From an uncultured Dokdonia sp. (GTDB taxonomy: Bacteria; Bacteroidota; Bacteroidia; Flavobacteriales; Flavobacteriaceae), in the NCBI RefSeq assembly GCF_947492535.1, contig NZ_CANLNH010000004.1, positions 124,001 to 188,000 of the forward strand: a stretch of DNA of 64,000 nt, written 5' to 3'. The notes under the pieces are model-generated. The model was given only the letters and a program-made list of their open reading frames with translations, searched no databases and was not told the DNA's origin. This document shows positions 4,444-60,386 of this stretch, one piece after another (the stretch's first letter is position 1; each line of letters opens with the position of its first letter). Both the position numbers and the translations under genes were made by a program.

Positions 4444-4868
4444 ATGCTTATTTATTATGAAGTTTGGTTTTATACGCTTTCGCGAAAGCGTATAAAGAAT
4501 CATTAAAAGTCTTCCTGAATACTCTTATTTTATTGTTAATGCTATTGAAGTAACATTGTTTCTTTCTAGATATTTGATAAAATATTTGTTATAAACTGAA
4601 GTCAGAAAAGGCGAACTCGAAATCTTCTATATTCAGTATGCTTTTTTAGACTATGAGATGTTTTCTTATTATGAAAAATAATGGATAAAAATATGGGGGT
4701 CTTTTATCTTTATGAGTAAAAATTACTTTGGTGATTTTGGAAGTTACATGCTTCTTAATAAGAAGTATATAAGGTTCTGCTTATTTGTATTGTAGAATCC
4801 CGTCTATAATATTCTCATTGTATTATTCTTATACTTTTATGGATTACTTTAAATAGTGGTATATACTT
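4444..4868. other. AT-rich intergenic stretch
   Basis: Convergent gap between the DUF5689 gene and the OmpA gene. Apart from one TTTCGCGAAA palindrome (4469-4496) I see no open frame, RNA gene or repeat. Confidence 0.6.
4469..4496. repeat. TTTCGCGAAA palindrome, copy 1 (intergenic)
   Basis: A perfect 28-bp palindrome centred on TTTCGCGAAA (4478-4487), the longest perfect copy in the window. It lies between convergent genes and has no T run, so it is not a standard terminator. Confidence 0.9.
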
Positions 4869-4902
4869 AAAAAGGCTTCCTACGAGTAGAAAGCCTTTTT
4901 AA
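4869..4902 (-). terminator. Terminator of the adhesin/PorP/OmpA operon
   Basis: Hairpin with arms aaaaaggctt and aagccttttt, lying 28 bases beyond the stop of the minus-strand OmpA gene (4930). The A run on the plus strand gives a U tract in the minus-strand RNA. It may work in both directions. Confidence 0.8.
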
Positions 4903-4929
4903 TTGAGTGAGTGTTTAAACTATGATTTG

Positions 4930-6810: not shown

Positions 6811-6828
6811 CTTGTACTGTATTTTATT

Positions 6829-7743
6829 TTAGAAGTATCTTGGTGAGCGTAATGCACGCTTATTAAAGATGATATTATAGGTTAATATTATTTCATGTGA
6901 TGATGGGGCCACATTGTTAATTTCTGAAACAACAGCATCATATGCATATCCTATTCTTAAATCTGGAGTGGCTTGAAAACCTACAATACCACTAAAAGAG
7001 TCGTCTAATCTGTATGAGACTCCTAATTCAAATTTTTCTAAGAAAAGCGCATTAAAGTTTACATCAAAAGAAGTAGGAGCATCAAAAGCTGATTTTACTA
7101 AAACAGAAGGTTTTAGTTTTATATTCTCTGTTGCTTGAAAAACATACCCAGATGTTACAAAATAGTGACTTGTTTCTGAGCCAAATTCAAGTCCATTTTC
7201 ATCTAGGTGAAGCGAACTTAATATATTAGGAACGGAAGCTCCAAAGTAGAAGTTATCACTATATAAAAATACGCCAGCTCCTATATTTGGATTTGTTTGG
7301 CTTATGTTTTCAGAAAAGAATGGATCATTATCGTCTTGTAATTCAAGATCGGCTAATCCAATATCATGAAAAGTAGCTCCCGCTTTTAATCCAAATGCTA
7401 ATTGATAATTACTACTTACAGGGATAGTGTAAGAGAAATCTACATACGCGTTTGTTTCTTTAACAGGTCCTAATTCATCTCTAATAATTGAGATTCCCAA
7501 TCCTGTTCTTTCGCCTACAGGTGCATGCGCATTGAACGTAAATGTTTCAGGGGCTCCATCTAGAGCAGACCATTGATTTCTATACAATAAACCCAGAGCA
7601 AGCCCTTCTTGTAAACCAGCATATGCAGGGTTAACCACATTCTGGTTGTACATATACTGTGTATATTGAGGATCTTGCTGTGCTGTTGCAAAATCAACAC
7701 ATATAATGCTTGTGATAAGGGTTAATAAAAATAGTTTTTTCAT
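6829..7743 (-). CDS. PorP/SprF-family type IX secretion outer-membrane protein
   Basis: A 304-residue protein with a signal peptide ending in ATAQQ and the family hallmark at the mature N-terminus, DPQYTQYMYNQNVVNPAYAG. The rest is beta-strand rich, as expected of a barrel of about 14 strands. In Flavobacterium johnsoniae SprF is needed to export the adhesin SprB, and paralogues usually sit next to the large adhesin they serve. Here the gene follows the 1638-residue adhesin by 83 bases and precedes an OmpA gene by 18 bases, so it is probably the dedicated secretion partner of that adhesin (inference from family and order). Confidence 0.92.
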   Translation of the reverse strand: MKKLFLLTLITSIICVDFATAQQDPQYTQYMYNQNVVNPAYAGLQEGLALGLLYRNQWSALDGAPETFTFNAHAPVGERTGLGISIIRDELGPVKETNAYVDFSYTIPVSSNYQLAFGLKAGATFHDIGLADLELQDDNDPFFSENISQTNPNIGAGVFLYSDNFYFGASVPNILSSLHLDENGLEFGSETSHYFVTSGYVFQATENIKLKPSVLVKSAFDAPTSFDVNFNALFLEKFELGVSYRLDDSFSGIVGFQATPDLRIGYAYDAVVSEINNVAPSSHEIILTYNIIFNKRALRSPRYF

Positions 7744-7826
7744 TTTTAAAAATTTATTTATTGCATAAATGATGCGTTATGCGCGATAATAAATATTATC
7801 TATTAGTGTCTTTGGCTATCCTTTGT

Positions 7827-17194: not shown

Positions 17195-18175
17195 TTATGG
17201 TGTATGTTTAAAGATACAATACACAGGGAAGTGGTCACTATACCCTCCTAAATATCTTCTGCCAGCGTAGGTACGAAATGGATTCCCTTTAAAACGTCCT
17301 TTAAATTCAGTGAGGTGGTGCTCATTATAAATATCAGATTTGTCATATCTAAGAGTGTTTTTATGCATACGCATAAAATTTGCAGATAGAATAATTTGAT
17401 CAAAGAGATACCATTCAAAATCATGATTAAGACTTCCTTCATATCGGGTATTTAGAAATACCATAGGATTATACAGATCTTTTTGAACTAAATGGTTTTT
17501 GATACTTTCATTATGAGGACCATCGTTAAAGTCGCCCATAACAATAATACGTGCTTCAGGTTCTTCCTCTTCAATACGCTCAATAATCATTCGGTTTTTT
17601 TGAGCAGCTGTAATTCGTTTGGGTTGTGATTCTTCTACACCACTTCGTCGGGAAGGCCAGTGATTTACTAATACATGCGTTCTCACACCCATTAAGTTTC
17701 CAGTAACGTGTAGAATATCACGGGTATAATCACGTTCTCCAAATTCTGATTCTAAGTATACAGAAACGGTCTCACTATCTATGACTTTAAAATCTTCTTT
17801 TAGGTATAATAAACCTACATCAATACCCCGTTCATCTGGAGAATCGTAATGTACAATGTCATACCCATGGTCTTCGAGATCTTCAGTTTCTATAAGTTTT
17901 TGAAGTACTGCTTTGTTTTCTACTTCGGCAACGCCTACTAATGAAGGGGCGTTATTTGTTTCTTTGTGTCCAATTTGTGAAATCACACGACCTAGCTTGT
18001 TTAGCTTTTTAGTATATCGCTTGCTATTCCAGTTTTTATATCCTTCGGCGGTAAAATCATCATCGAGTGTTTCGGGATCATCTTGGGTGTCAAAAAGGTT
18101 TTCTAGGTTGTAAAATGCAACACCTATTTTCTTTTGTTCTGAGTGCGCTTTCGCGAAAGCGGAATTATCTTTCAT
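17195..18175 (-). CDS. Endonuclease/exonuclease/phosphatase-family protein
   Basis: A 326-residue protein of the DNase I-like fold. The domain begins with GVAFYNLENLFDTQDDPETL. Other conserved segments are VGVAEVENKAVLQ, VHYDSPDERGIDVGLLY, VLVNHWPSRRSG, IVMGDFNDGPHNESI and the C-terminal SDHFPVY, supplying the metal and catalytic Asn, Glu, Asp and His residues of the family. There is no signal peptide. The first 16 residues (MKDNSAFAKAHSEQKK) lie outside the domain and are partly encoded by a TTTCGCGAAA palindrome. An internal start may be used, though none is obvious. The substrate (DNA, phosphoester or sphingomyelin-like) cannot be told from sequence. It is divergent from hflX. Confidence 0.88.
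   Translation of the reverse strand: MKDNSAFAKAHSEQKKIGVAFYNLENLFDTQDDPETLDDDFTAEGYKNWNSKRYTKKLNKLGRVISQIGHKETNNAPSLVGVAEVENKAVLQKLIETEDLEDHGYDIVHYDSPDERGIDVGLLYLKEDFKVIDSETVSVYLESEFGERDYTRDILHVTGNLMGVRTHVLVNHWPSRRSGVEESQPKRITAAQKNRMIIERIEEEEPEARIIVMGDFNDGPHNESIKNHLVQKDLYNPMVFLNTRYEGSLNHDFEWYLFDQIILSANFMRMHKNTLRYDKSDIYNEHHLTEFKGRFKGNPFRTYAGRRYLGGYSDHFPVYCIFKHTP
18146..18161. repeat. TTTCGCGAAA palindrome, copy 2 (in nuclease-family gene)
   Basis: Core at 18149-18158. Encodes AFAKA at residues 6-10, in the N-terminal extension before the catalytic domain. Confidence 0.9.
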
Positions 18176-20920: not shown

Positions 20921-20934
20921 GCTTTCGCGAAAGC
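20921..20934. repeat. TTTCGCGAAA palindrome, copy 3 (intergenic)
   Basis: Core at 20923-20932, between the stop of the membrane-protein gene and the hairpin at 20942. Confidence 0.9.
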
Positions 20935-22255: not shown

Positions 22256-22759
22256 TTATTTTTTCTTATATAATGGAACTGATGAGCAGGCTTCACCAAA
22301 GAGTAAACTTTTTACAACAGGTTGTAATTTTTCTATGAGTAATAGGTATGCATTTTCAGGAACAGGTTTGTTTGTGCATCCTTTTACAATGACGGGACTA
22401 TTTAGATAAGGAGTTGTGTCTAATGTTGAAATTGCTTCTGTAAATAGAATTGTTTCTAGTGTTTCTTGAGAACCTGTAATGGTTTTTTTTGCAATACCTT
22501 GTAATTGTGTGGCGACAAGCATATATGCCCAAGCAGGAATAATGGCATCGGTACTACAATGCAATGAAACATAGGCATCTTGATATTGTGTCCAATTATG
22601 GTTGGATACGCTTTCGCGAAAGCGTTTTTCTCGTAATATAAAACCTTCTTCTAGCCATTGTGAAATATCTACACGCTTACGATCGCCCGAAGCATATAAC
22701 TCTTCAAGATCAAATGTGATCAGTTTACTATTTGCTACTCTATTTATGATTTCATCCAT
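22256..22759 (-). CDS. DUF2480 family protein
   Basis: A 167-residue cytoplasmic protein starting MDEIINRVANSKLITFDLEE, with WLEEGFILREKRFRE, HCSTDAIIPAWAYMLVATQL and VIVKGCTNKPVPENAYLLLI. This pattern matches DUF2480, a Bacteroidota family of unknown function that regularly sits at the end of the suf cluster. The Cys in VKGCTNK and CS in EACSSVP could contact metal or sulfur, but this is speculation. The RFRES segment is encoded by a TTTCGCGAAA palindrome. The gene begins 44 bases beyond a 147-bp tandem array that separates it from the sufT-like gene. Confidence 0.88.
   Translation of the reverse strand: MDEIINRVANSKLITFDLEELYASGDRKRVDISQWLEEGFILREKRFRESVSNHNWTQYQDAYVSLHCSTDAIIPAWAYMLVATQLQGIAKKTITGSQETLETILFTEAISTLDTTPYLNSPVIVKGCTNKPVPENAYLLLIEKLQPVVKSLLFGEACSSVPLYKKK
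22609..22624. repeat. TTTCGCGAAA palindrome, copy 4 (in DUF2480 gene)
   Basis: Core at 22612-22621. Read in a second frame, it encodes RFRES within DUF2480. Confidence 0.9.
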
Positions 22760-24740: not shown

Positions 24741-25298
24741 TTATAGATGTTTATATAGATACCACATGGGTTTGTACATATCGTGTAATAATTCAAAGTC
24801 TAAATGCTGTAAGCCTCCTTTTATATATCCTAGACTATTATAGAAATTCATAGCCTGTGGGTGTTGATCCATAGCATCTAGCCAAATGAGCTGATGGCCG
24901 GTCTCTTGAGCACGTGTTTGCGCATACTGCATAAGGCGTCTCCCAATGCCTTTCCCTTGTATCGTTGTATCTAGATAAATGCGGTGTACTTTGAAACTTT
25001 GCCGATCAGGTTGTTCAGGATACGTGCAATTTTCTATTATTTTTAAGATGCCAATGGTCGTGTATTCTTTGTTGTATACGCTTTCGCGAAAGCGTACAAA
25101 GTAATAATACGATCCTTTTTCCTGAAGTTCTTTTTTAAGGTTTTCAAGAGTATATAAATTATTGATGTACCAATTCCCTTGATCCTGCCAGAAATGTTCA
25201 TAGGCAGGCGGATAGATGCGTTTCATTAGTTCGTACAGCGCTGGCTGATCTTCTAATGTGATAGGTTGCAATACTAATTGATCAGAAATAGTAATCAT
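24741..25298 (-). CDS. GNAT-family N-acetyltransferase
   Basis: A 185-residue single-domain GNAT protein. The acetyl-CoA loop is GKGIGRRLMQYAQTRAQETG, preceded by strand VHRIYLDTTIQ and followed by LIWLDAMDQHPQAMNFYNSL with GY, the usual C-terminal signature. The acceptor is unknown. It starts 11 bases after sufS and so reads as part of the suf transcript. The stretch VRFRESVYNKE is partly encoded by a TTTCGCGAAA palindrome. Confidence 0.9.
   Translation of the reverse strand: MITISDQLVLQPITLEDQPALYELMKRIYPPAYEHFWQDQGNWYINNLYTLENLKKELQEKGSYYYFVRFRESVYNKEYTTIGILKIIENCTYPEQPDRQSFKVHRIYLDTTIQGKGIGRRLMQYAQTRAQETGHQLIWLDAMDQHPQAMNFYNSLGYIKGGLQHLDFELLHDMYKPMWYLYKHL
25079..25094. repeat. TTTCGCGAAA palindrome, copy 5 (in GNAT gene)
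   Basis: Core at 25082-25091, extended on the left to TATACGC. Encodes RFRES, in the same frame as copy 4. Confidence 0.9.
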
Positions 25299-25309: not shown

Positions 25310-26548
25310 TTACGAAAGCATCATCACAGCACGCTCCACACCTTTCACAAACGTATCGATCTCTTCCTTTGTGTTATAAAAGGAGAAAGAGGCTCTTACG
25401 GTACCAGGAATTTTAAAATAATCCATAATAGGTTGTGCGCAATGATGTCCTGTACGTACAGCAATCCCTAATTTGTCTAAGATAGTACCAATATCATACG
25501 GATGAATCGATCCAACATTAAAAGAAATAACAGCGGTTTTCTTTGAAGATTCTCCATAGATTTTAAGCCCTTCAATTTTAAGGAGTTTCTCTGTGGCATA
25601 TTGAAGTAATTCTTCTTCATAAGCAGCAATCACATCAAATCCTATCGCATTCATATAATCTAATCCAACACCGGTAGCAATACCACCACAAATATTTGGC
25701 GTTCCTGCTTCAAACTTGTGAGGCAAGCCAGCGTAGGTGGTTTTTTCAAAAGTGACTTGATCTATCATTTCACCACCACCTTGGTAAGGCGGTAACTTTT
25801 CTAATAAGGCTTCTTTTCCATATAGAATTCCAACACCTGTTGGGCCACAGATTTTATGAGCACTTGCTACATAAAAATCAGCGCCAAGAGCTTGTACATC
25901 TGGTTTGATGTGTGGGGTTGCTTGTGCACCATCTATCACCACAGCAGCGCCTACGTTATGTGCTTCGGCGATAATATGTTCTATAGGATTTACAGTTCCT
26001 AATGCGTTTGATACGTGATTTACAAATACCAATTTAAGGTTGGTTGAGATCGCTTTCGCGAAAGCGTCCATATCTAACTCCCCGCTTTGCGTCATAGGAA
26101 TCACTTTTAAGATAGCCCCTGTGCGTTCACAAAGCATTTGCCAAGGAACAATATTACTATGGTGTTCTAAAGCAGATACCAAGATTTCATCTCCTTTTTG
26201 AAGCAGTGCACTGTATCCATTTGCAATTAAGTTGATCGCATGTGTTGTTCCTGAAGTAAGGATAATTTCATGAGCTTTTGCAGCATTAAAATGTTTTTGA
26301 ATTTTAATACGTGCTTCTTCATAAGCATCAGTTGCTTCTTGCGAAAGCGCATGTACACCTCTATGAATATTTGCATTGTAATTAGAATAGTAATCTACAA
26401 TGGCATCAATGACTGCTTGAGGCGTTTGAGACGTAGCAGCATTATCAAAATAGATTAAAGGTTGTCCATTTACTTGTCTTGAAAGTATAGGAAAATCTTT
26501 TCGTATGTCTTGTACGTTAAACGTAGTATGTGATGTTGTTGCTGCCAT
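25310..26548 (-). CDS. sufS: Cysteine desulfurase SufS
   Basis: A 412-residue PLP enzyme (class V aminotransferase fold) that removes sulfur from cysteine to supply SufE and SufBCD. Visible are YFDNAATSQTP at the N-terminus, ILTSGTTHAINLIA, ALEHHSNIVPW, the PLP lysine in ASAHKICGPTG (about Lys232) and the catalytic loop RTGHHCAQP with Cys370. The start at 26548 (MAATTSHTTF) is preferred, since a longer frame to 26584 adds an unrelated KKK-rich leader. It lies between sufD and the GNAT gene. A 175-base leader with three hairpins separates it from sufD. The AFAKAIS segment contains a TTTCGCGAAA palindrome. Confidence 0.97.
   Translation of the reverse strand: MAATTSHTTFNVQDIRKDFPILSRQVNGQPLIYFDNAATSQTPQAVIDAIVDYYSNYNANIHRGVHALSQEATDAYEEARIKIQKHFNAAKAHEIILTSGTTHAINLIANGYSALLQKGDEILVSALEHHSNIVPWQMLCERTGAILKVIPMTQSGELDMDAFAKAISTNLKLVFVNHVSNALGTVNPIEHIIAEAHNVGAAVVIDGAQATPHIKPDVQALGADFYVASAHKICGPTGVGILYGKEALLEKLPPYQGGGEMIDQVTFEKTTYAGLPHKFEAGTPNICGGIATGVGLDYMNAIGFDVIAAYEEELLQYATEKLLKIEGLKIYGESSKKTAVISFNVGSIHPYDIGTILDKLGIAVRTGHHCAQPIMDYFKIPGTVRASFSFYNTKEEIDTFVKGVERAVMMLS
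26051..26066. repeat. TTTCGCGAAA palindrome, copy 6 (in sufS)
   Basis: Core at 26054-26063. Encodes AFAKA in SufS. Confidence 0.9.
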
Positions 26549-29697: not shown

Positions 29698-30573
29698 TTA
29701 GTTTAGTGCTTTAGGAGCTACAGGCATTTTTACAAAGTCTGCAGGCTCGTGTTGTATATATACTTTAGCGTTTTTTGCTTTCGCGAAAGCTTCAAAATTA
29801 GCAATCGCAGTTTTACTTTGATCAAGATCATGATTAAATACAGGAATTACTTTCCCATCTCGATTTTCTTGAAAATGATACATATCTCCAGATAACAACG
29901 TGGGTCCATTTTCTGGTAAATCAATAAAAAGTACTTGATGACCCGGCGTATGACCTGGCATTGATTTTATAATGACACTACCATCTCCAAATACATCACG
30001 ATCTCCTGAAAGTTCGATGACATTGGTAAGTTCTTTAAAAGAATCTGGCGCATAAAAACCGTTTCCTTTTATTTCTTCACCTATAGCAAAATTATATTCA
30101 GGTTTTTGTACAAGCCATTTTGATGCAGCAAAATGATTTGCAGCACCAGTATGGTCAAAATGGATATGAGAAAATGCGATGTAGTCTATATCTTCTTTTT
30201 TAACTCCTATAGAGGCTAATTGATTTAATATAGAATCTTTTCTAGAAATTGTAAAAGCTCCATCAGGAGTTGTATATGGCTCTTGACCTACAAGACCTTC
30301 TGGTAAACCTGTATCCCATAATAAAACACCTTTTGGATGTTTTATTACATAAAAAGCATCAACTAGCTTTTTAGATTCTCCTTTATACGTTTCTCCTTGA
30401 GCAAAAAGGTTTAAATTATTTGCTCCAACAGACCCTCCGTTAAATGTATATAACGCAACTGCTGGTTTTGCAGGAGTTTTAGTTTCTTCCTGAGATTGTT
30501 TGTTTTCTACAGAAGATTCCTTACAAGACATCATAGCTAATACAACAGCTACTAATGTGATAATCTTTTTCAT
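29698..30573 (-). CDS. MBL-fold metallohydrolase lipoprotein (AHL-lactonase-like)
   Basis: A 291-residue protein with lipobox Cys17 and a serine/lysine-rich linker. The metallo-beta-lactamase domain has the zinc motif HIHFDH (His136, His138, Asp140, His141), then MPGHTPGHQVLFIDLPENGP and GDMYHF. The arrangement (LWDTGLPEG early, HxHxDH, a later GHTPGH) resembles N-acyl-homoserine lactonases, but many MBL enzymes share it. Sitting between sufB and sufC, it is not a standard SUF component. The substrate is unknown. The EAFAKAKNAKV segment contains a TTTCGCGAAA palindrome. Confidence 0.85.
   Translation of the reverse strand: MKKIITLVAVVLAMMSCKESSVENKQSQEETKTPAKPAVALYTFNGGSVGANNLNLFAQGETYKGESKKLVDAFYVIKHPKGVLLWDTGLPEGLVGQEPYTTPDGAFTISRKDSILNQLASIGVKKEDIDYIAFSHIHFDHTGAANHFAASKWLVQKPEYNFAIGEEIKGNGFYAPDSFKELTNVIELSGDRDVFGDGSVIIKSMPGHTPGHQVLFIDLPENGPTLLSGDMYHFQENRDGKVIPVFNHDLDQSKTAIANFEAFAKAKNAKVYIQHEPADFVKMPVAPKALN
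29777..29790. repeat. TTTCGCGAAA palindrome, copy 7 (in MBL gene)
   Basis: Core at 29779-29788. Encodes AFAKA near the C-terminus of the MBL-fold lipoprotein. Confidence 0.9.
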
Positions 30574-30600: not shown

Positions 30601-32046
30601 TTATCCTACACTTCCTTCTAAACTAATTTCTAGTAATTTTTGAGCCTCTACTGCAAACTCCATAGGAAGTTTATTAAGTACTTCTTTACTAAAACCATTT
30701 ACAATCAATGCGATTGCCTTTTCTGTATCAATACCACGCTGATTACAGTAAAAAATTTGATCTTCTCCAATTTTACTAGTGGTAGCCTCATGCTCAATTT
30801 GCGCAGATTTGTTTTTTGCTTCTATATAAGGAAATGTATGTGCACCACATGCATTCCCCATTAGTAAACTATCACATTGTGAAAAGTTACGCGCATTATC
30901 TGCATTGGCATTTATTTTTACCAATCCACGATATGAGTTTTGTGATTTTCCAGCAGAAATACCTTTGGAAATAATAGTACTCTTAGTGTTTTTTCCTAAG
31001 TGTATCATTTTTGTTCCTGTATCTGCTTGTTGGTAATTATTAGTTACCGCTATAGAATAAAATTCTCCTATAGAATTATCTCCTTTAAGAACACAGCTAG
31101 GGTATTTCCAAGTAACTGCACTTCCGGTTTCCACTTGAGTCCAAGAGATTTTTGCGTTTTTCTCGCAAAGACCACGCTTTGTTACAAAGTTAAAAACGCC
31201 TCCTTTTCCTTCGCTATTTCCAGGATACCAGTTTTGTACAGTTGAATATTTGATTTCTGCATCATCAAGAGCAATCAACTCAACAACGGCTGCATGTAAT
31301 TGATTTTCATCACGACTTGGAGCTGTACAGCCTTCTAAGTAACTTACATAACTTCCTTTATCTGCAATTACTAAGGTACGCTCAAACTGACCTGTCCCTG
31401 CTTGATTAATTCTAAAATAAGTAGAAAGTTCCATTGGGCAACGTACGCCTTTTGGGATATAACAGAAAGATCCATCTGAAAATACAGCACTGTTTAAAGC
31501 GGCGTAAAAATTATCTTTCTGAGGTACAATAGTACCAATGTATTTTTTAACGAGTTCAGGATGTTCCTTAATAGCCTCAGAGATACTCATAAAAATAATT
31601 CCCTTTTTAGCAAGGGTATCTTTAAAGGTAGTGGCTACAGAAACAGAATCTACAACCACATCCATGGCTACGTTTGCAAGTTTCTTTTGCTCATCAATAG
31701 AGATTCCTAATTTCTTAAAAGTCTCTAGTAATTCTGGATCTACTTCATCTAAGCTGTCATACTTAGGTTTTGAGTTTGGAGCCGAATAATAAGAAATAGC
31801 TTGAAAATCAGGTTTTTCATAATTGACATTTGCCCATTCTGGCTCTTCCATTTTAGTCCAGTGACGAAACGCCTCAAGGCGCCATTGCGTCATCCATTCT
31901 GGTTCTTCTTTTTTCTTTGAGATTGCTATAACAATATCTTCGTTAAGCCCTACAGGGAATGTTTCAGAATCAATATCGGTATAAAAACCGTATTCGTATT
32001 CTTTAGTTTTAAGTTCCTCCCTTAAATCGTCTTCAGTATATGCCAT
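30601..32046 (-). CDS. sufB: SufB, scaffold subunit of the SUF complex
   Basis: A 481-residue protein of normal length. SufB is the core scaffold on which Fe-S clusters are built with SufC and SufD. Recognisable segments are [65 protein letters not shown]-like [11 protein letters not shown] and the C-terminal [20 protein letters not shown] then GID. Conserved Cys residues in YLEGC and [15 protein letters not shown] are present. It follows the sufA-like gene by 138 bases, a gap in which I see no gene. Confidence 0.97.
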
Positions 32047-33900: not shown

Positions 33901-33924
33901 TATACGCTTTCGCGAAAGCGTATA
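33901..33924. repeat. TTTCGCGAAA palindrome, copy 8 (intergenic)
   Basis: A perfect 24-bp palindrome (core 33908-33917) in the 156-base gap between the T9SS protein gene and the hydrolase gene, 15 bases after the stop of the latter. Confidence 0.9.
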
Positions 33925-36407: not shown

Positions 36408-38444
36408 TTGAAAAAGATTTTACGTTACTCTTTTGGTATATGCATGTTTATGGCTCAAATGAGTTATGGACAAACAGACTCCATTCCTTCACAAAAACTA
36501 GATACGATATTTATACAATCTTCTCGTATTAACAGTACCCTTAAAAAGTTACCTGCTTCGGTATCTGTATATCAAGCAACTCCAGATGATGCTACCAGAC
36601 AACAGCTTTCTTTGCAGGAATTTACACAACAAAGTCCAGGGCTGTTTGCACAAAACACAAATAACTTTGCACAAGACTTACGAATTTCTATACGTGGTTT
36701 TGGTGCGAGAGCTGCCTTTGGAATACGTGGGATAAAGTTAATTGTAGATGGAATTCCAGAAACCACTCCAGATGGTCAAGGGCAATTAGATAATCTTACC
36801 TTAGGAATTATAGATCGTATCGAAATAATAAAAGGACCTAGCTCCAGTTTATACGGGAATGCATCGGGTGGTGTGATTGATATTCAAACGATAGATAAGG
36901 TTGAGAAGCCTTTTTCTAATTGGAAAGGAAGTGTAGGTTCTTACGGGTTTCAAAACTTTCAAGCAACAGGCGGCATCAATTCAGAAAATGCTACCTATAT
37001 ATTTCATGGAAATTATGTGGCTTCCGATGGCTATCGAGATCAAAGTGGATTCAAACAAGTAAATACCAATTTTAAAGCAAAATTTGATATCAGTGATCGC
37101 CTTACCATAAAAGCACTACTTAATTATAGTGATTCTCCCGAAGCAGATGATCCTGGAAGCTTAACCTTAGAAGCCGTTCAAGAAAATAGAAGACAAGCCA
37201 GAGATCGTAATATACTCTTTGAAACAGGAGAAGCCATACGTCAGTTTAAAGTAGGCATCAGTACCACGTGGACTAAAAATAAATTTACAACCGTAGATGG
37301 TTATTTGTTTTATAACAACAGGCAGTTTGATGGGAAGTTGCCTTTTGAGTTTGGGGGTATTGTAGATTTAGGACGAGATTACTTAGGACAAGGCGCTTCG
37401 ATCACATACTCAAAAGGACGTAATACGGTAAAAGCGGGCTATGATTTTGGATATCAAAATGACAACAGGCAACGTTTCAGAAACCTAGAAGGAACACAAG
37501 GAGATCAAACCTTAGATCAGAAAGAACGATTTACAAATGTAGGTGTGTATGTGACAGATCACTTTGCAATAGATCAATGGTATTTCACAGGCGGAATACG
37601 CTTCGACTATAATAAACTCACAGCAGATGATGCCTTTTTAAGCAACGGAGACGATTCAGGCGATATTACATTAAATGCTGTAAATCCTAGTATTGGGGTG
37701 AATTATGCTTTCGCGAAAGCGCATAGCGTCTATACCAACTTTTCTACAAGTTTTGAAACACCAGCATTATCAGAACTCTCAGCAAATCCAAATGGAGATC
37801 AGGGGTTTAATGAGGATTTAGAAGCGCAAAAAGCCTCTAATTATGAGGTTGGTTTTAAAGGACAGTTTGCAAATAGATTTCGATACCAAATAGCATTTTT
37901 CCGAATAGATACCCGCGATGACTTAGTGCCTTTTGAACTGGAAGCCTTTCCAGATCGTACATTTTTTAGAAATGCAGGAAGAACAGAACGTAATGGAGTT
38001 GAGGTGGAAGGTATATACGCTTTCGCGAAAGCATGGACAATTTCGGCAGCCTACACCTATTCTGATTTTACATACGATGATTTCACAACACCTAATGGAA
38101 CCTTTGATGGAAATGTATTACCTGGAATTCCAGAGCATCTAGGAAATATAGGCATACAATACCGTTCTGAAAAAGGGTTTTACGCAGGAATTCAAGTTAA
38201 TATTGTAGGATTGCAATATGCAAATGATAGTAATGATACAGAAGTAGAAGGGTATGAAAATATAAGCCTGCGTGGCGGGTATGATTTCAATTATAAAAAT
38301 GTAACCATACAACCATATATTGGAGTAAATAACCTACTTGATCAAGAGTATACAGATAACGTACGTATCAATGCCTTTGGAGGTCGCTTTTTTGAACCTG
38401 CACCAGGTTTTAATGGATATGGTGGAGTCGTTATAAAAATTTAA
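36408..38444 (+). CDS. TonB-dependent siderophore-type receptor
   Basis: About 678 residues from a TTG at 36408, which gives a compact signal peptide (KKILRYSFGIC to SYGQ). An upstream TTG at 36360 would add 16 residues. The TonB box region is followed by the plug (LPASVSVYQATPDDATRQQL; ISIRGFGARAAFGIRGIKLI; GPSSSLYGNASGGVIDIQT). The barrel ends on GVVIKI after the NNLLDQEYTDNVRINAFGGR signature of the TonB_dep_Rec domain. It resembles FecA-like receptors without a carboxypeptidase-like N-terminal domain. Two TTTCGCGAAA palindromes lie within it and both encode YAFAKA. It may supply iron or another chelate; the ligand is not determined. Confidence 0.9.
   Translation: MKKILRYSFGICMFMAQMSYGQTDSIPSQKLDTIFIQSSRINSTLKKLPASVSVYQATPDDATRQQLSLQEFTQQSPGLFAQNTNNFAQDLRISIRGFGARAAFGIRGIKLIVDGIPETTPDGQGQLDNLTLGIIDRIEIIKGPSSSLYGNASGGVIDIQTIDKVEKPFSNWKGSVGSYGFQNFQATGGINSENATYIFHGNYVASDGYRDQSGFKQVNTNFKAKFDISDRLTIKALLNYSDSPEADDPGSLTLEAVQENRRQARDRNILFETGEAIRQFKVGISTTWTKNKFTTVDGYLFYNNRQFDGKLPFEFGGIVDLGRDYLGQGASITYSKGRNTVKAGYDFGYQNDNRQRFRNLEGTQGDQTLDQKERFTNVGVYVTDHFAIDQWYFTGGIRFDYNKLTADDAFLSNGDDSGDITLNAVNPSIGVNYAFAKAHSVYTNFSTSFETPALSELSANPNGDQGFNEDLEAQKASNYEVGFKGQFANRFRYQIAFFRIDTRDDLVPFELEAFPDRTFFRNAGRTERNGVEVEGIYAFAKAWTISAAYTYSDFTYDDFTTPNGTFDGNVLPGIPEHLGNIGIQYRSEKGFYAGIQVNIVGLQYANDSNDTEVEGYENISLRGGYDFNYKNVTIQPYIGVNNLLDQEYTDNVRINAFGGRFFEPAPGFNGYGGVVIKI
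37707..37720. repeat. TTTCGCGAAA palindrome, copy 9 (in TonB receptor)
   Basis: Core at 37709-37718. Encodes YAFAKA in a barrel strand or turn. Confidence 0.9.
38019..38032. repeat. TTTCGCGAAA palindrome, copy 10 (in TonB receptor)
   Basis: Core at 38021-38030. A second YAFAKA in the same protein, 312 bases after copy 9. Confidence 0.9.
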
Positions 38445-42053: not shown

Positions 42054-43481
42054 TTAGTTTATTTTTATTAATACTGCATCTAGAGAACCATTACTACTTG
42101 TAAGTTCTCCAGTATTACTTTGTGTTTCTCCTGCTATAATGATGTCTCCTTGGTTATTTGCAGCAATTCCTAACCCAAAATCAATACCATCACCACCTAT
42201 AGCTCGTTGGTCTTGTAGATTTCCATTATCATCTAATAAGGCAATCCAAATATCATTTTGACCACTATTAGATGTAACGTCTATATCATTACTACGTGAT
42301 GATCCTGTAATGGCAATTCCATTTGTTGTTGCAACAACAGCTCTGGCAGAGTCAAAATTTGTTCCTCCTAGCGTTTTCTCCCAAAGTAATGTGCCTTGAT
42401 CGTTTATTTTGATTACCCATACATCGGCATTGCCATTAAACTCAGTAACATCTCCGTCATTACTTCGTGTGTCACCTGCAATAATATAATTGCCATCGGC
42501 TGTTTTTGTGGCAGCAAATGCGATATCAATTTCTGATCCACCAAAAGAACGTTCCCAGACCAAATTACCAGAAGCGTCTAAACGTACTGCCCAGAAATCA
42601 TAGCTTCCTTTAGGATCTGAAATATCAAAGTCATTACTTTCACTAGCGCCTACCATTAAAATACCACCGTCATCGGCTTGTACGGTTGCATAGGCTCTGT
42701 CATTATTTGTGCCTCCAAAATAACGACGCCATTCTTTGTTACCGTTGGCATCTAGTTTATGTCCCCAGAACTCACCTACGCCATGTAATGTGGTTCTTGT
42801 GTTGTTATTTCCTGGTGCTGCAAAGTCATTACCATCTCCATTAGATGCTGTTACATCTAAAAAGCCTGATGTAAAATAACCACCATCTGTGGTTTGTATA
42901 ATGGAAAATGCTTGATCAGATCCAGGGAATCCATAACTTTTTTCCCATTCAATTTCTCCTTGCGCATCTAGTTTTACAACCCAATGATCTTGAAATCCTT
43001 CATTATTACTTACGTCTCCATCACTGCTTCGGCTATATCCCGTCATCGCATATCCGCCATCTGAAGTTTGGATAACTTCTTCTCCACGGTCATCATTTGT
43101 GCCTCCATAGGTTTTTGACCATTGTATGTTTCCTTCACTATCTGTTTTGACAAGCCAGTACATATTTACTTGATTTGCATTATCTGTAATATCACCATCT
43201 ATACTTTGAGAGTATCCTAGGGCAATAAAACCGCCATCACTAGTCGCAGCTACATCGTGAAAGGTGTCATCTTCACTACCTCCATATACACGTGCAAAAT
43301 CTAATGTGATAGATACGTTTTCCGTTTCGGTGTCTGTAGTTGTATCTTCTTCTGTTTCGATGTCTGTACTTTCTGGGGGTACTACAGGAGACTCATCATC
43401 ACTACAACTTAGGATCATTGCAGTAAGTAATATAAGGCTGAGTATACGCTTTCGCGAAAGCATAAAAAGCAAATAATTCAT
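42054..43481 (-). CDS. Propeller-type repeat lipoprotein
   Basis: About 475 residues from the ATG at 43481 (MNYLLFMLSRKRILSL), with a lipobox at AMILSC and an acidic Thr/Glu linker. Six or seven repeats of about 55 residues follow, with FGGSExD, TxDGGYxxxGxSxSxDGD and DxWVVKLDxxGxxxWE, as in delta-60 or beta-propeller bacterial repeats. It probably forms a surface binding propeller. A longer frame to 43535 overlaps the preceding gene and is not needed. It lies between an LVIVD gene and the MbnP-like gene in one operon. LSRKR in the N-region is written by a TTTCGCGAAA palindrome in the third frame. Confidence 0.85.
   Translation of the reverse strand: MNYLLFMLSRKRILSLILLTAMILSCSDDESPVVPPESTDIETEEDTTTDTETENVSITLDFARVYGGSEDDTFHDVAATSDGGFIALGYSQSIDGDITDNANQVNMYWLVKTDSEGNIQWSKTYGGTNDDRGEEVIQTSDGGYAMTGYSRSSDGDVSNNEGFQDHWVVKLDAQGEIEWEKSYGFPGSDQAFSIIQTTDGGYFTSGFLDVTASNGDGNDFAAPGNNNTRTTLHGVGEFWGHKLDANGNKEWRRYFGGTNNDRAYATVQADDGGILMVGASESNDFDISDPKGSYDFWAVRLDASGNLVWERSFGGSEIDIAFAATKTADGNYIIAGDTRSNDGDVTEFNGNADVWVIKINDQGTLLWEKTLGGTNFDSARAVVATTNGIAITGSSRSNDIDVTSNSGQNDIWIALLDDNGNLQDQRAIGGDGIDFGLGIAANNQGDIIIAGETQSNTGELTSSNGSLDAVLIKIN
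43447..43461. repeat. TTTCGCGAAA palindrome, copy 11 (in repeat lipoprotein signal)
   Basis: Core at 43450-43459. Encodes LSRKR, the positively charged N-region of a lipoprotein signal peptide; the only copy in this frame. Confidence 0.9.
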
Positions 43482-47934: not shown

Positions 47935-48708
47935 TTATGATAAGAAGTTTAAAATATGCTCAATCATAGTTTCTTTATTAGATATATGACTCATATGTCC
48001 ACCCTTAATAATTGAAAAATAGGCTATATAGGAGTTGAATTTTTCTTCTTGTCGTTTTGCATCAATAATCCAGTCGTTTTCTCCTAAAATCATGCCTCTT
48101 TTAAATGAAGCATTTTTCCAGAAGTTTGTTGCATCTTCTCTTAAGCGCATACCTTCGTTTGAAGCAATGTATCCTTGTATAGTGGTTTGTAAGGCATGGT
48201 GTAATGCCGCTGTAATTTCATCGTGGTATGTTTCTTTGGAGGCAGGATCGAAAAGATTAATAAAAGACATGCGTACTAATTGTTCAAATTGTGTTTTAGC
48301 CATTTGATTAGCTCTGAGTCGCAATTGTTTTCGTTCTTCCTGATCTGCTTCTGGGGTAGAATTTAAGAGGCATAATGCGTTGACTTTTTCTGGGTATGCT
48401 TTCGCGAAAGCGATCCCAACATATCCCCCCATGGAATGTCCAATAAGGGTAATTTTGTGGAGATGTAATTCATGTATGACGGCGTGCAAAGCTTCTGAAA
48501 AATCCTGCATAGTATGGATATAGCCTAAACAATCAGTCTTACCATGCCCTAAAAGATCCACACAAATAACGCGATACTTTTTTATGAGAAAAGGAAGTAA
48601 ACCACCCCACATCGTACTATTTTCTAAAAAGCCATGTAGTAATAGAATAGGATCTCCCGCTCCCTGATCTGTATAAAAAATACGACTCCCTTTATGTGTA
48701 ATCTCCAT
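47935..48708 (-). CDS. Alpha/beta hydrolase
   Basis: A 257-residue cytoplasmic enzyme of the MhpC/YbfF type. The oxyanion region is ILLLHGFLENSTMW, the nucleophile elbow GHSMGGYVG and the catalytic His is in the final KGGHMSHISNKETMI. The acid residue is probably the Asp in LGENDWIIDAKR. The substrate cannot be told. The AFAKAYPEK stretch after the nucleophile is encoded by a TTTCGCGAAA palindrome. It is divergent from brnQ across a 36-base gap. Confidence 0.9.
   Translation of the reverse strand: MEITHKGSRIFYTDQGAGDPILLLHGFLENSTMWGGLLPFLIKKYRVICVDLLGHGKTDCLGYIHTMQDFSEALHAVIHELHLHKITLIGHSMGGYVGIAFAKAYPEKVNALCLLNSTPEADQEERKQLRLRANQMAKTQFEQLVRMSFINLFDPASKETYHDEITAALHHALQTTIQGYIASNEGMRLREDATNFWKNASFKRGMILGENDWIIDAKRQEEKFNSYIAYFSIIKGGHMSHISNKETMIEHILNFLS
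48398..48411. repeat. TTTCGCGAAA palindrome, copy 12 (in hydrolase gene)
   Basis: Core at 48400-48409. Encodes AFAKA just after the GHSMGG nucleophile elbow. Confidence 0.9.
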
Positions 48709-53927: not shown

Positions 53928-53931
53928 GGTA

Positions 53932-54394: not shown

Positions 54395-54416
54395 ATACGC
54401 TTTCGCGAAAGCGTAT
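54395..54416. repeat. TTTCGCGAAA palindrome, copy 13 (intergenic)
   Basis: A perfect 22-bp palindrome (core 54401-54410) in the 79-base gap between the DUF1330 start and the aminopeptidase P stop. Confidence 0.9.
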
Positions 54417-56965: not shown

Positions 56966-57361
56966 ATGATTCAAAATATTATATACATTAGTAAAGCAGA
57001 TAAAGAACTGTCCAAATTTGAAATAAAAGAGCTTGTTTTTTTTGCTAGAGTAAAAAATAGAGAAGAAAAAATAACAGGATTTTTAATTCACCAAAATGGA
57101 TATTTTATTCAATGGATAGAAGGTCCTTCTGAAAATGTGCTGCATCTTTTAGAAAAAATAAAACAAGACTCTAGACATCAATCTCTTAAAGTACTTGTGA
57201 ATCGCAAATTAGAATCCCCTGTGTATAACAATTGGAGAATGCGTTATTTGACAGATATAGAGAAATTAAAGATTGGCGATTTTGAAAGTCTATATAGTGA
57301 GTCAGGCGGTAAGGATATAGTAGATATTTTAAATAAGATTATGTTAGATTTTGTAGCTTAA
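56966..57361 (+). CDS. BLUF-domain blue-light photoreceptor
   Basis: 131 residues forming essentially one BLUF domain, which senses blue light through bound FAD. The residues known to handle the flavin are all present: Tyr7 (IIYISKA), Asn31 (ARVKNREEKITGF), Gln49 (GYFIQWIEG), and Trp90 and Met92 (YNNWRMRYL). The usual tail helices follow. There is no output domain, so it must signal through a partner protein, as short BLUF proteins do. A dedicated promoter lies 29 bases before the start. The next gene is a secreted protein with no evident link, so the output is unknown. The Crp/Fnr regulator upstream and divergent is one candidate (inference). Confidence 0.95.
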   Translation: MIQNIIYISKADKELSKFEIKELVFFARVKNREEKITGFLIHQNGYFIQWIEGPSENVLHLLEKIKQDSRHQSLKVLVNRKLESPVYNNWRMRYLTDIEKLKIGDFESLYSESGGKDIVDILNKIMLDFVA

Positions 57362-57536
57362 TTACAAATACATAATGTGAAATAATGCTTCATAGAAAGA
57401 CCCGATATTGGATGTGATATAGTATCGTAAGTCACACTGACTATAAATAGTAGATAATAAATAGTTAAACTCCTTCCAAAAATTTTCACATAATTTCACA
57501 TTTCCGTACTTTCAAGGCGCTAAAACAAAAACCAAC

Positions 57537-60386
57537 ATGAAATTACGCACTTCCCTCTTTGTAGGTGTTGCTGTATTCGCTTTCGCGAAAGCGTACCCAC
57601 AACAACCTGCAACCTCGGCAGCTCAAGTACAACAAGGCATTGCTCAAAAACGTACTGCACAACAAAACTCACTCGTTAAGAATCTTCCTTTTGAAAATAT
57701 TGGTCCTACCGTGATGAGTGGTCGTGTGGTAGATCTTGCCGTAAATCCTGACAAGCCTTCGGAATTTTATGTAGGCTATGCCAGCGGAGGTTTGTGGTAT
57801 ACAAATAACAACGGAACTACATTTGAACCTGTATTAGATACTAGTGATACACAAAATGTAGGTGATATTGCTGTTGATTGGAAAAATGGAACCATCTGGG
57901 TAGGAACAGGAGAAAATAACTCGTCACGCTCTAGTTATGCCGGAATCGGAATCTTAAAATCAACAGATAAAGGGGCTACTTGGCAACATGTAGGTCTTGC
58001 AGATTCACATCATATAGGACGTATCCTAATCAATCCATCAAATCCTGATGAGGTAGTGGTTGGTGTGACTGGACACTTATATTCTTCTAATGATGAACGT
58101 GGTGTGTATAAAACCACCGATGGTGGAAAAACATGGAACAGAACACTTTTTGTTAATAATGAAAGTGGTATCATTGATATAGATCATGACCCTGCAAATT
58201 TCAATCTGATGTATGCATCGGCTTGGGATAAAGATCGTAAAGCATGGCATTTTGAAGGTAGTGGTTCTGGATCTGGTGTTTATAAAAGTACAGATGGAGG
58301 GACTACGTGGCAAAAGCTAGATGGATTCCCTTCAGGAGATGGTGTAGGACGTATAGGAATTGCAGTGTATGATGCCAATACTGTATATGCGGTACATGAT
58401 AGTCAGTTTAGAAGAAAAGGAGCTGATAAAGGGAGTAAGAGTGGTGGAGCATTAACAAAAGATGACTTCAAAACCATGAGTAAAGATGCGTTTCTAGCAT
58501 TAGATAATAAAAAACTTAACGGGTTTTTAAAACGTAATAATTTCCAAGAAAAATACCGTGCAGAAAACGTAAAGTCAATGGTACGTAATGGATCAGTACA
58601 ACCAACCGATCTTGCAAAATATTTGGAGACAGCAAATACGCAATTATTTGACACTCCTGTCGTAGGTGCCGAAGTGTACAGATCTGACGATGCTGGAAAA
58701 ACATGGAAGAAAACACATGATGGGTACCTAGATGATATCTATTACAGTTATGGATATTACTTTGGAGAGATTCACGTAAATCCACAAGACGATCAAGATA
58801 TTTATATCTATGGGGTGCCTATTGTTGCCTCAAAAGATGGTGGAAAAACCTTTAAAAGTATTGGAGCAGAAAATGTGCATGCAGATCATCATGCTCTGTG
58901 GATCAATCCTAAAAATGAAAAACATCTCATTAATGGAAATGACGGAGGTGTAAATATTACGTATGATGATGGTGAAAATTGGATCAAAGCCAATGACCCA
59001 TCTGTAGGACAATTTTATTCCATTCAAGTAGATAATGAAGAGCCTTACAACGTGTATGGAGGACTTCAGGATAATGGTGTTTGGGTAGGTGCAAATACAG
59101 CGCAAGAAAACAAGAGTTGGCACCAAAGCGGTCAATACCCATGGGAAAGTATCATGGGCGGTGATGGGATGCAAGTGCAAGTGGATAATCGGGATGCCAA
59201 TGTGGTATATACAGGATTCCAGTTTGGGAATTACTTTAGAATCAACCGTGAGACAGAAGATTTTAAACGTTTTAATATCAAGCATGAATTAGGAGAAAAA
59301 CCTTACCGTTTTAACTGGCAAACACCTATTTTATTAAGTCCGCATAATCAAGATATCTTGTATTTAGGAGGTAATAAATTAATGCGTTCTATGAATCAGG
59401 GAGATGATTGGACGGCTATCAGTGATGATCTAACCAAGGGAGGAAAAGATGGAAATGTAGCGTATGGAACGCTCGCAACGATTAGTGAGTCTCCTTTTCA
59501 GTTTGGATTAATTTATACAGGAAGTGATGATGGAAAAGTCTATGTTACCAAAGACGCCGGAGGAAGTTGGACAGATATTAGTGCTAGCTTTCCAAAAGAT
59601 CTGTGGGTGTCTCGTGTAGTGGCTTCTGAGCATAAAAAAGAACGCGTATATGCAACGCTAAACGGATACCGTTGGGATGATTTTAAAACCTATGTATATG
59701 TGTCTGATAACTATGGACAAACATGGAAAAATATTTCTGGAAATATCCCAATGTCTCCTGTAAATGTGATTGTGGAAGACCCTAAAAAAGAAAATATTAT
59801 TTATGTAGGAACTGATAATGGTGCCTATGTAAGTGTGGATGGAGGTAGTAGTTATCACGCTTTCGCGAAAGGACTGCCAGCTGTAGCAGTACATGACATG
59901 AAAATTCAAAAAAGAGAAAACCACCTCTTATTAGGAACACATGGAAGAAGTATTTATAGAACAGATATCACAACCATCCAGCAAATGGATGCCTCTCAAA
60001 ACGTACAATTATTTGAAGTAGCTTCCTTACGTAACTCACCACGTTGGGGAAATAGTTTTAGTATGTGGGGAGATGCTTTTGAGCCTTCTGTAGCAGTGTC
60101 TTATTTTTCAAGTTATGCAGGTAAATTCTCTATGGTGGTCAAAGATGCCAACGGAAAAGAATTACAGCGTATGCCATTAGTGCCTCAAGCAGGAATCAAT
60201 GTAATTGATTATGATCTTTCTATTACCGAAAAAGGGAAAAAAACATTAGAAAAAGCAAACACAGAACTCAATATTAGAAAAGCCAGTAATGGTAAATATT
60301 ATTTGCCTAAAGGAACATATACGATTGAACTCGATGGCGGTGGCGGAAATGCTTTAGCAATAACTACAAAATTAGAAGTGAAGTAA
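57537..60386 (+). CDS. Large secreted beta-propeller (VPS10/sortilin or BNR-repeat) protein
   Basis: A 949-residue exported protein. The signal peptide ends AFAFAKA (about residues 17-23), giving an AKA cleavage site that is encoded by a TTTCGCGAAA palindrome. About residues 50-830 are propeller blades in WD40/YVTN/BNR style with many TDGGKTW-like loops (STDKGATWQHVGL; KTTDGGKTWNRTLF; SKDGGKTFKSIGAE) and the typical VPS10 segments NGNDGGVNITYDDGENW and GLQDNGVWVGA. A beta-sandwich-like C-terminus follows (FEPSVAVSYFSSYAGKF; LPKGTYTIELDGGGGN). No T9SS tail is seen. It probably acts in the periplasm or on the surface, possibly in protein or polymer binding or hydrolysis. Confidence 0.85.
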   Translation: MKLRTSLFVGVAVFAFAKAYPQQPATSAAQVQQGIAQKRTAQQNSLVKNLPFENIGPTVMSGRVVDLAVNPDKPSEFYVGYASGGLWYTNNNGTTFEPVLDTSDTQNVGDIAVDWKNGTIWVGTGENNSSRSSYAGIGILKSTDKGATWQHVGLADSHHIGRILINPSNPDEVVVGVTGHLYSSNDERGVYKTTDGGKTWNRTLFVNNESGIIDIDHDPANFNLMYASAWDKDRKAWHFEGSGSGSGVYKSTDGGTTWQKLDGFPSGDGVGRIGIAVYDANTVYAVHDSQFRRKGADKGSKSGGALTKDDFKTMSKDAFLALDNKKLNGFLKRNNFQEKYRAENVKSMVRNGSVQPTDLAKYLETANTQLFDTPVVGAEVYRSDDAGKTWKKTHDGYLDDIYYSYGYYFGEIHVNPQDDQDIYIYGVPIVASKDGGKTFKSIGAENVHADHHALWINPKNEKHLINGNDGGVNITYDDGENWIKANDPSVGQFYSIQVDNEEPYNVYGGLQDNGVWVGANTAQENKSWHQSGQYPWESIMGGDGMQVQVDNRDANVVYTGFQFGNYFRINRETEDFKRFNIKHELGEKPYRFNWQTPILLSPHNQDILYLGGNKLMRSMNQGDDWTAISDDLTKGGKDGNVAYGTLATISESPFQFGLIYTGSDDGKVYVTKDAGGSWTDISASFPKDLWVSRVVASEHKKERVYATLNGYRWDDFKTYVYVSDNYGQTWKNISGNIPMSPVNVIVEDPKKENIIYVGTDNGAYVSVDGGSSYHAFAKGLPAVAVHDMKIQKRENHLLLGTHGRSIYRTDITTIQQMDASQNVQLFEVASLRNSPRWGNSFSMWGDAFEPSVAVSYFSSYAGKFSMVVKDANGKELQRMPLVPQAGINVIDYDLSITEKGKKTLEKANTELNIRKASNGKYYLPKGTYTIELDGGGGNALAITTKLEVK
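57579..57594. repeat. TTTCGCGAAA palindrome, copy 14 (signal-peptide cleavage site)
   Basis: Core at 57581-57590. Encodes AFAKA at the end of the signal peptide, so the palindrome writes the Ala-X-Ala cleavage site. Confidence 0.9.
59859..59871. repeat. TTTCGCGAAA palindrome, copy 15 (in propeller gene)
   Basis: Core at 59861-59870. Encodes AFAKG; the right arm stops after the core (GGACTG follows). Confidence 0.88.

Follow-up and report, generated by a model that had tools for sequence, protein, structure and literature searches.

A palindromic word kept at hundreds of sites per chromosome in Dokdonia and relatives: a possible self-DNA uptake signal

A palindromic word, TTTCGCGAAA, is kept at hundreds to about 1000 copies per chromosome in Dokdonia and some related genomes, and no account of it turned up in literature searches. 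Gains and losses of the word are mainly substitutions, and individual sites are preserved to the letter. Because its traits match those of the uptake sequences of Pasteurellaceae and Neisseria, we favour, with confidence a little short of even, the reading that the palindrome is a self-DNA uptake signal.

In the window (the whole 64-kb stretch of Dokdonia DNA that was analysed), the 10-mer TTTCGCGAAA occurs 15 times against an expectation of 0.02, and none of 100 dinucleotide-preserving shuffles of the window reached 15 copies. A sequence-only reading of this DNA had given the same 15 coordinates, all exact, and its coding counts were reproduced as well: by mechanical ORF calls, 11 sites lie in ORFs and 4 in gaps, and the peptides at the 11 coding sites are AFAKA/AFAKG (8), RFRES (2) and LSRKR (1). 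Perfect symmetry reaches 18 to 28 bp at five sites, as listed below, and 12 to 16 bp at the other ten. That reading had also held that many copies extend to a longer form; ACGCTTTCGCGAAAGCGT does occur, in full at 5 of the 15 sites, so that "many" was generous. The sites, with their state in genomes G011 and G014, are as follows; no strand is assigned to them.

Site 1, 4478..4487: convergent-gene gap; 28-bp perfect palindrome; same place in G011.
Site 2, 18149..18158: coding, AFAKA, from the sixth codon of an ORF on the minus strand; intact in G011 and G014.
Site 3, 20923..20932: convergent-gene gap; intact in G011, unaligned in G014.
Site 4, 22612..22621: coding, RFRES; 18-bp perfect palindrome; intact in G011, replaced in G014; G425 (another genus), G006 and G009 have a site at the equivalent aligned position.
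Site 5, 25082..25091: coding, RFRES; 20-bp perfect palindrome; intact in G011 and G014.
Site 6, 26054..26063: coding, AFAKA; intact in G011, replaced via substitutions in G014.
Site 7, 29779..29788: coding, AFAKA; intact in G011, while G014 has two silent changes.
Site 8, 33908..33917: gap; 24-bp perfect palindrome; unaligned in G011 and G014.
Site 9, 37709..37718: coding, AFAKA; 10-mer intact in G011 and G014.
Site 10, 38021..38030: coding, AFAKA; intact in G011, absent via substitutions in G014.
Site 11, 43450..43459: coding, LSRKR; intact in G011 and G014.
Site 12, 48400..48409: coding, AFAKA; intact in G011 and G014.
Site 13, 54401..54410: gap; 24-bp perfect palindrome; in G011 an insert lies within the aligned palindrome, with TTTCGCGAAA at the insert edge; unaligned in G014.
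Site 14, 57581..57590: coding, in an N-terminal stretch (VFAFAKAYPQQP); intact in G011 and G014.
Site 15, 59861..59870: coding, AFAKG; intact in G011, replaced in G014.

The over-representation claimed from the window extends to the genome and to related species. The 10-mer has 1094 copies in the window's own 4.86-Mb Dokdonia genome, far over the 21 of a reversed control, which rejects base composition as the cause; CTTTCGCGAAAG has 852 copies against 0 for its control. The 12-mer was found in bulk in all 18 Dokdonia genomes searched, in the genus g26 (probably Nonlabens) and in g201, a sister of Dokdonia (RpoB was adopted as phylogenetic marker; SufB was rejected as too conserved and possibly displaced). 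Its density in these groups is about one per 3.5 to 7.4 kb, and that of the 10-mer in G000 about one per 4.4 kb. The 391 other genomes of the 397 in the family hold 0 to 21 copies, and the clusters examined among them are transferred islands. The genome G425, from another genus, carries a scattered remnant, mostly of one-letter variants: 85 sites lie within one mismatch (control 16), 20 of them exact, which gives 3.25 one-offs per exact copy, and 5 of 18 comparable sites fall on a Dokdonia site. The idea that other genera have a dialect of their own was rejected: in 16 non-carrier samples of 11 to 20 kb, which are small and several of which were picked for holding this word, no other palindromic 10-mer exceeded 4 copies among the matches listed. 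One protein search on plasmids matched weakly three times, each in another genus.

The word is highly pure. In 464 kb of G000, 82 copies of the 14-mer GCTTTCGCGAAAGC are exact and 12 one-off; in 400 kb of G016 the counts are 129 and 6. Exact 12-mers exceed one-offs in all 22 carriers, with 0.10 to 0.56 one-offs per exact copy over whole genomes, even though 36 one-off words are possible; purity is not the same everywhere, g201 having 248 one-off and 445 exact copies. Of 109 TTCGCGAA in G000, 107 lie inside the full 10-mer, as do all 141 in G016. Redfield et al. single out the surplus of perfect copies over those with one mismatch as what is puzzling about the uptake signal sequence (USS) of Pasteurellaceae and the DNA uptake sequence (DUS) of Neisseriaceae, and regulator sites lack it (PMC1626085).

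The earlier reading had likened the palindrome to HIP1 of cyanobacteria. The likeness holds in that the word, as described for HIP1 (PMC4390886), is palindromic, iterated, clade-limited and present in genes and gaps, which would suit a word that arises as a side effect of methylation of DNA and the repair of mismatches. However, Elhai describes one-off HIP variants as common in many cyanobacteria (the comparison number is absent from section 13 of the article), and reports that every cyanobacterial genome in which words are highly over-represented has a putative methyltransferase to match (PMC4390886). One-offs of the present word are few, and the two methyltransferase families PF00145 and PF01555 do not track it: PF00145 is found in 6 of 15 carriers and PF01555, over the cut-off, in 2 of 15, and both are at least as frequent in non-carriers (12 and 6 of 20). 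Among 11 Dokdonia tested, PF00145 is present in 4 and missing from 7, the window's genome among them, and PF01555 is over the cut-off in none, with weak sub-cut-off matches in 2. The constrained word, comprising the full 10-mer, is also long for a methyltransferase site. We consider an origin of this kind very unlikely, and neither these two families nor the word length supports the modification target that had been proposed.

Around the core TACGCTTTCGCGAAAGCGTA, the symmetric word has C-poor, G/T-rich flanks that reach about 27 bp on each side of the centre, where the bias ends, so that the site is symmetric over about 54 bp. On both sides, the G/T-rich, C-poor strand is the one ending 3' at the site; the 3' flank is A/C-rich. 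USS likewise carry flanking segments (PMC1626085). A longer hidden palindrome was rejected, as left and right flanks showed no covariation. The C-tolerant flank positions (-9, -15, -21 and -27) showed an apparent, weak 6-nt recurrence in both genomes, clearest at -9 and -15. An RNA hairpin or terminator might be suspected from the palindrome and its density past stop codons, but real flank pairs (-11.10 kcal/mol) had no extra stability over permuted ones (-11.27 ± 0.18 kcal/mol), and selection for a hairpin was rejected on this ground. The 3' flank also has no T run, and 178 of 319 sites lie within ORFs in every frame, making such an RNA role highly improbable.

Conservation acts on the individual sites. 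From G016 to G006, at 77% identity, 16 of 17 sites were letter-perfect (control 10.6%); the corresponding values were 13 of 14 from G000 to G011 (control 25.1%) and 6 of 8 from G000 to G016 (control 4.9%). In 62 site/no-site alignments, which are ordered genome pairs among which sites recur, 50 showed substitutions without a gap and 12 a gap, so the choice between clean insertion and point change posed by the earlier reading falls mostly on point changes. A mobile or self-copying, REP-like insertion element would fit the high purity, the copy number, the use of gaps and the 12 gapped cases. It is contradicted by the 50 ungapped ones and by coding sites that replace existing codons, as at 29779, where G014 differs by two silent changes; we regard it as barely credible, and the self-spreading element suggested earlier is not supported. 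For USS, an origin by substitution was argued in Redfield et al. (PMC1626085).

Placement also points to the DNA. The 178 coding sites use all three frames (95, 42 and 41), which rejects a peptide motif as the cause. Site density per kb is 0.18 in coding sequence, 1.1 to 2.2 in gaps, 3.7 in the 25 nt past stop codons and 0.44 in the 25 nt ahead of starts. The frames, the use of gaps and a conservation far above background strongly support the earlier claim that selection is on the DNA and not on a peptide. Spacing is more even than chance (CV 0.68, under all 5000 random draws), with a dispersion of 0.39 over 39 stretches. Around one complete chromosome, 20 stretches of 20 kb hold 5 to 9 sites each and show no trend between origin and terminus; the bias raised by the earlier reading is thus not seen, and a role as an origin/terminus marker was rejected.

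Against the uptake reading stands another view of even spacing, which Karlin (cited in PMC1939737) took to indicate replication, repair or compaction. The palindrome could bind a protein of the nucleoid or of segregation for which sites must recur at intervals of a few kb, consistent with the even spacing and uniform density, the wide, symmetric footprint, and the retention of sites within the genus, some being common to another genus. However, the origin/terminus trend is lacking, the binding protein is only postulated, and the word has the strong consensus of uptake sequences as opposed to the relaxed one of regulator sites (PMC1626085); we judge this reading unlikely. A broader possibility, less probable in our view than uptake, is a new chromosome-wide landmark: a clade-specific dimeric protein would read hundreds to a thousand evenly spaced, symmetric sites, each about 54 bp long, and so mark DNA as self or organise the chromosome, with lasting selection per site and with no need for pili or the tested methyltransferases. 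If so, the 6-nt recurrence in the flanks would hint at a repeated DNA contact of the reader.

A recombination or repair signal was also considered, namely a two-way counterpart of Chi, at which an exonuclease-helicase arriving from either side would be stopped or switched and the G/T-rich, C-poor strand ending 3' at the site would offer RecA a loading tract free of structure. RecA prefers GT, and the Chi density in E. coli resembles that of this palindrome. The spacing of the 10-mer in G000, the irrelevance of orientation for a palindrome, the independence from origin and terminus, the flank polarity on both sides and the lack of sites in two isolated phages fit such a signal. However, the RecC family PF04257 is absent from all 44 genomes, carriers and non-carriers alike, and a link to RecC was rejected; the flank bias is short for a loading tract; the Chi words known to us are unpalindromic and 5 to 8 nt long, and none that we know of has comparable purity. 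We hold a Chi-like role to be improbable.

Among the causes listed by the sequence-only reading, the DNA-uptake-type signal and the chromosome-organising site survive; self-spreading is not supported, nor is modification for the two methyltransferase families tested. Under the uptake reading, a clade-specific, probably dimeric DNA-binding protein is predicted to read the word and thereby to recognise self-DNA during uptake in natural transformation. Site-bearing fragments would be taken up and recombined more often than others; this bias would push the exact word into any part of the chromosome that tolerates it, with copies some kb apart, and the word would decay in lineages that lose the predicted reader. 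H. ducreyi, in which competence genes are broken and USS are few and weak (PMC1626085), parallels the relic lineage G425. For Riemerella columbina, a preference for self-DNA in transformation is reported in PMC7965970, which places the species in the Flavobacteriaceae. The isolated Nonlabens phages held no site in P12024S (35.7 kb) or in 30.0 of the 35.65 kb of P12024L. Against uptake we count the 3 and 4 sites on two other phage contigs, the impure 12-mer in g201, and a transferred island in G108 whose sites are not clearly decayed (7 one-off, 19 exact). T2SSF, the type IV pilus/type II secretion family taken as marker of pilus uptake machinery, is present in 5 of 15 carriers and 5 of 20 non-carriers; 10 of 15 carriers, and the window's genome, have none. 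A signature scan for ComEC and DprA gave no match in about 27% of G016 and about 10% of G000, and says little because of this coverage; the same kind of scan does recover RpoB signatures. We are aware of no reported competence in either Dokdonia or Nonlabens.

To our knowledge, uptake sequences are described only in Pasteurellaceae and Neisseriaceae, so that this may be the first uptake signal in Bacteroidota. If true, it would be a third case, palindromic and in an unrelated phylum, and a clean comparative system, with carrier lineages, lineages in which the word is confined to transferred islands and others that appear to be losing it. The uptake reading predicts a specific reader protein, retrievable with one oligonucleotide. 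The palindrome is also a tracer for DNA moved from carriers into other genera.

Compared with known systems, the word resembles HIP1 and alternate HIPs in being short, palindromic and repeated genome-wide, in genes as well as gaps; it differs in its longer constrained word, fewer one-offs, G/T-rich flanks and two tested methyltransferase families that do not track it. It shares with Chi a similar density (E. coli) and G/T-rich polarity near the site; unlike Chi, it is palindromic, long and pure, in genomes that have no RecC. The parS and Noc sites are likewise palindromic with TTTC...GAAA arms, whereas the present sites are hundreds to a thousand, evenly spread, with a different centre and spacing and no origin bias seen. 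USS and DUS match it in genome-wide spread, exact copies with few one-offs, mainly substitution origin, presence in genes and gaps, limitation to a clade and a related lineage with a weakened set, and USS also in flanking segments. USS and DUS occur about once per 1 to 1.3 kb, and how such words spread is debated. In contrast, the Dokdonia word is sparser, T2SSF accompanies it in only a third of the carriers, its uptake role is putative, and it is palindromic, as no USS or DUS known to us is.

All 15 copies of the palindromic 10-mer TTTCGCGAAA listed by the sequence-only reading were present in the window against an expectation of 0.02, and none of 100 shuffles gave a count as high as 15. The division of these copies into 11 in open reading frames (ORFs) and 4 in gaps was also borne out, as were the encoded peptides (AFAKA/AFAKG, RFRES and LSRKR). 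The over-representation extended to the whole 4.86-Mb genome (G000), which contained 1094 copies compared to 21 of a reversed control, and 852 copies of the 12-mer CTTTCGCGAAAG compared to 0 for the control.

The 12-mer was found at 383 to 937 copies in each of the 18 Dokdonia genomes searched. In a sample of 397 family genomes out of a larger group, six had more than 400 copies (two Dokdonia, three of genus g26 and one of genus g201), and the remaining 391 had only 0 to 21. Four of eight named Dokdonia loci matched the DNA of genus g1 that was compared (the best of them at 95.4% over 8 kb to genome G016, another of the four at 76.8% over 7.8 kb to G000), and for the remaining four no counterpart was found in that portion. 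These matches indicate that g1 is Dokdonia. A 22-bp form matched at least 110 stretches in a scan of named genomes, and the 80 listed were from Nonlabens and Dokdonia, plus one uncultured Aquimarina, from which we infer that g26 is Nonlabens. RpoB sequences from 30 genomes gave a tree with g201 as the sister of Dokdonia (support 100/99) and no firm place for g26, and the word may have had a single origin. No report of the word, as TTTCGCGAAA, as CGCTTTCGCG or CGCGAAAGCG, or as palindromes in Dokdonia or Nonlabens, was found in titles and abstract openings of the open-licence papers listed, and publication elsewhere is possible.

Six Dokdonia regions gave 30 ordered, non-independent pairs with 620 site comparisons, of which 308 aligned across the site and 312 unaligned ones were excluded. 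The site was intact in 246 of the aligned comparisons and lost in 62, with a gap in 12 of the losses. From G016 to G006, 16 of 17 sites were intact, compared to 10.6% of control 10-mers; the values for G000 were 13 of 14 to G011 (control 25.1%), 6 of 8 to G016 (4.9%) and 6 of 11 to G014 (9.3%). From G006 to G009, 22 of 25 sites were intact (control 58.6%), and all three losses were single substitutions. The lowest intact fraction was 2 of 6, from both G006 and G009 to G014 (control 6.3%). At window position 54401, the aligned palindrome was split by an insert in G011, with TTTCGCGAAA at the insert edge. SufB (window 30601-32046) had a closer match in many other genera than in Dokdonia G012, which suggests that SufB of this genome may have been displaced or transferred.

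The site core was TACGCTTTCGCGAAAGCGTA, and TTCGCGAA lay within the full 10-mer in 107 of 109 cases in G000 and 141 of 141 in G016. Copies with one mismatch (one-offs) were few: the exact to one-off ratio of 14-mers was 82:12 in 464 kb of G000 and 129:6 in 400 kb of G016, and 10-mer one-offs, background included, numbered 25 to 107 exact copies and 25 to 141, respectively. Beyond the core, from about -11 to -26 on the 5' side, C was avoided and G and T were favoured, in both coding and intergenic sites. By eye, the flank tolerated C at -9 and -15 and, to a lesser degree, at -21 and -27 (G000, G016), an apparent 6-nt recurrence. Left and right flanks showed no co-variation, and hairpins from real flank pairs were no better than those from permuted pairs. 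In 53 pooled intact comparisons, the core within 8 bp of the centre was over-conserved, and the flank bases overall evolved no slower than average and faster at 12 to 20 bp from the centre. In the 1.32 Mb scanned, the repeats TGCCGGCAGGCAGG and GAGCGCAGTCGAAG each occurred in two places, all four of them in G000 and within 30 bp of a TTTCGCGAAA (contig C1 stretches L016 18522, L028 9498, and L017 11789 and 15551).

Placement was measured in G000 and G016 (1.32 Mb in all) with mechanically called ORFs. Coding DNA had 0.18 sites per kb, a density that rose to 0.41 (35 sites) in the initial 75 nt of ORFs, and tandem, divergent and convergent gaps had 1.57, 1.12 and 2.19, respectively. The density peaked at 3.7 per kb in the first 25 nt past stop codons and was as low as 0.44 in the 25 nt ahead of starts. 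This pattern is that of a signal put where it is least harmful and not that of promoters. The excess at ORF starts perhaps arises because AFAKA fits the end of a signal peptide (window 57581; L031 16764-19544). The 178 coding sites from five genomes, some of them orthologues of each other, were read in frames of the AFAK (95), FRES (42) and LSRK/N (41) types. Within 400 kb of a single contig, site spacing had a CV of 0.68, lower than all 5000 random draws, and gaps below 500 bp numbered 3 compared to 9.8 expected. The dispersion index over 39 stretches of 20 kb in G016 was 0.39 (lower-tail p 0.0003), and site density showed no origin-terminus trend over 20 stretches. A chromosome landmark is a serious rival reading of the word.

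Part of the low-count genomes of other genera were examined. In G108, all 19 exact 12-mers lay within a single 78-kb stretch (contig C3:32332-110017), and stretches with DNA in common among G110, G119, G133, G240, G044 and G357 accounted for at least 21 of the 39 exact copies in these six genomes. The exact to one-off ratio was 20:5 for 14-mers in the shared stretches of these six genomes and 19:7 for 12-mers in the G108 stretch. The shared stretches of G110 encode what we take to be copper and heavy-metal resistance proteins. Such stretches resemble islands that were acquired by transfer from a carrier, that is, a genome with the word in bulk, and the word in metal-resistance-like islands is a tracer of the donor. 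Such islands with the word were common to several Flavobacteriaceae genera (L227 to L232; G108 C3:32332-110017), and a site pair 933 bp apart recurred in G108, G110, G119, G133 and G240. L228 (9249-11684) encodes a multicopper-oxidase-like protein with PAGQAG, which, at the protein level only, may be an in-frame reading of a CTGCCGGCAGGCAGG-type repeat.

G425, a genome of another genus, had 20 exact copies scattered over 17 contigs and 85 copies at up to one mismatch including these (control 16), giving 3.25 one-offs per exact copy compared to 0.10 to 0.56 in 22 carriers. In the 41 sites viewed in context (20 exact and 21 one-offs from retrieved stretches), the flank bias was weaker than that of Dokdonia. 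For 18 sites, the DNA examined from Dokdonia or Nonlabens contained a homologue that spanned the site at 45% identity or more; 13 of these had no site at the corresponding place, and 5, including window site 22612, coincided exactly with one, 2 of them being one letter off in G425. Since these 5 coincide, the comparison indicates that some sites predate the genera. G425 appears to be a lineage in which the means of maintaining the sites, whatever it is, has been lost; alternatively, this lineage may still be gaining sites.

Of 15 carriers, 6 (among them 4 of 11 Dokdonia) had methyltransferase family PF00145, as did 12 of 20 non-carriers, and PF01555 scored above cut-off in 2 of 15 and 6 of 20, respectively, with none of 11 Dokdonia above and two weak matches below it. 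Both families were absent from G000. A third of the carriers (5 of 15) and a quarter of the other genomes (5 of 20) had T2SSF. A Chi-like role in repair is also a serious rival reading; RecC was absent in all 44 genomes. Two word-bearing viral contigs contrast with two isolated Nonlabens phages that lacked the word, P12024S (35.7 kb; 59 features, no integrase named) and P12024L (30.0 of 35.65 kb examined). IMGVR_UViG_3300039191_000362 had 4 sites in three separate stretches (L120, L137, L142; 27.6 kb) and encodes a transposase and a baseplate-hub protein, and is presumably a Mu-like phage. IMGVR_UViG_2617271332_000001 (L150), with a head maturation protease, had 3 sites in 11.3 kb.

Our tentative choice, held at somewhat below an even chance, is that the word may be an uptake or self-recognition signal, because traits of the uptake sequences (USS) of Pasteurellaceae have counterparts here, two traits of the cyanobacterial palindrome HIP1 fail as far as examined, and Riemerella columbina prefers its own DNA. 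The relevant part of PMC7965970 describes this preference in transformation, and candidate uptake repeats, putative there, that are A/T-rich. For HIP1, the part of PMC4390886 drawn on reports that one-offs are common and that there is a putative methyltransferase to match the word; judged from the one-off counts and from PF00145 and PF01555, neither trait holds for the Dokdonia word. The sections of PMC1626085 used here describe USS as originating by mutation and as having flanking segments, and H. ducreyi as having inactivated competence genes and sparse, weak USS copies. As far as those sections go, mutational origin, flanking segments and a weak-copy lineage are each matched by a counterpart in the Dokdonia word.
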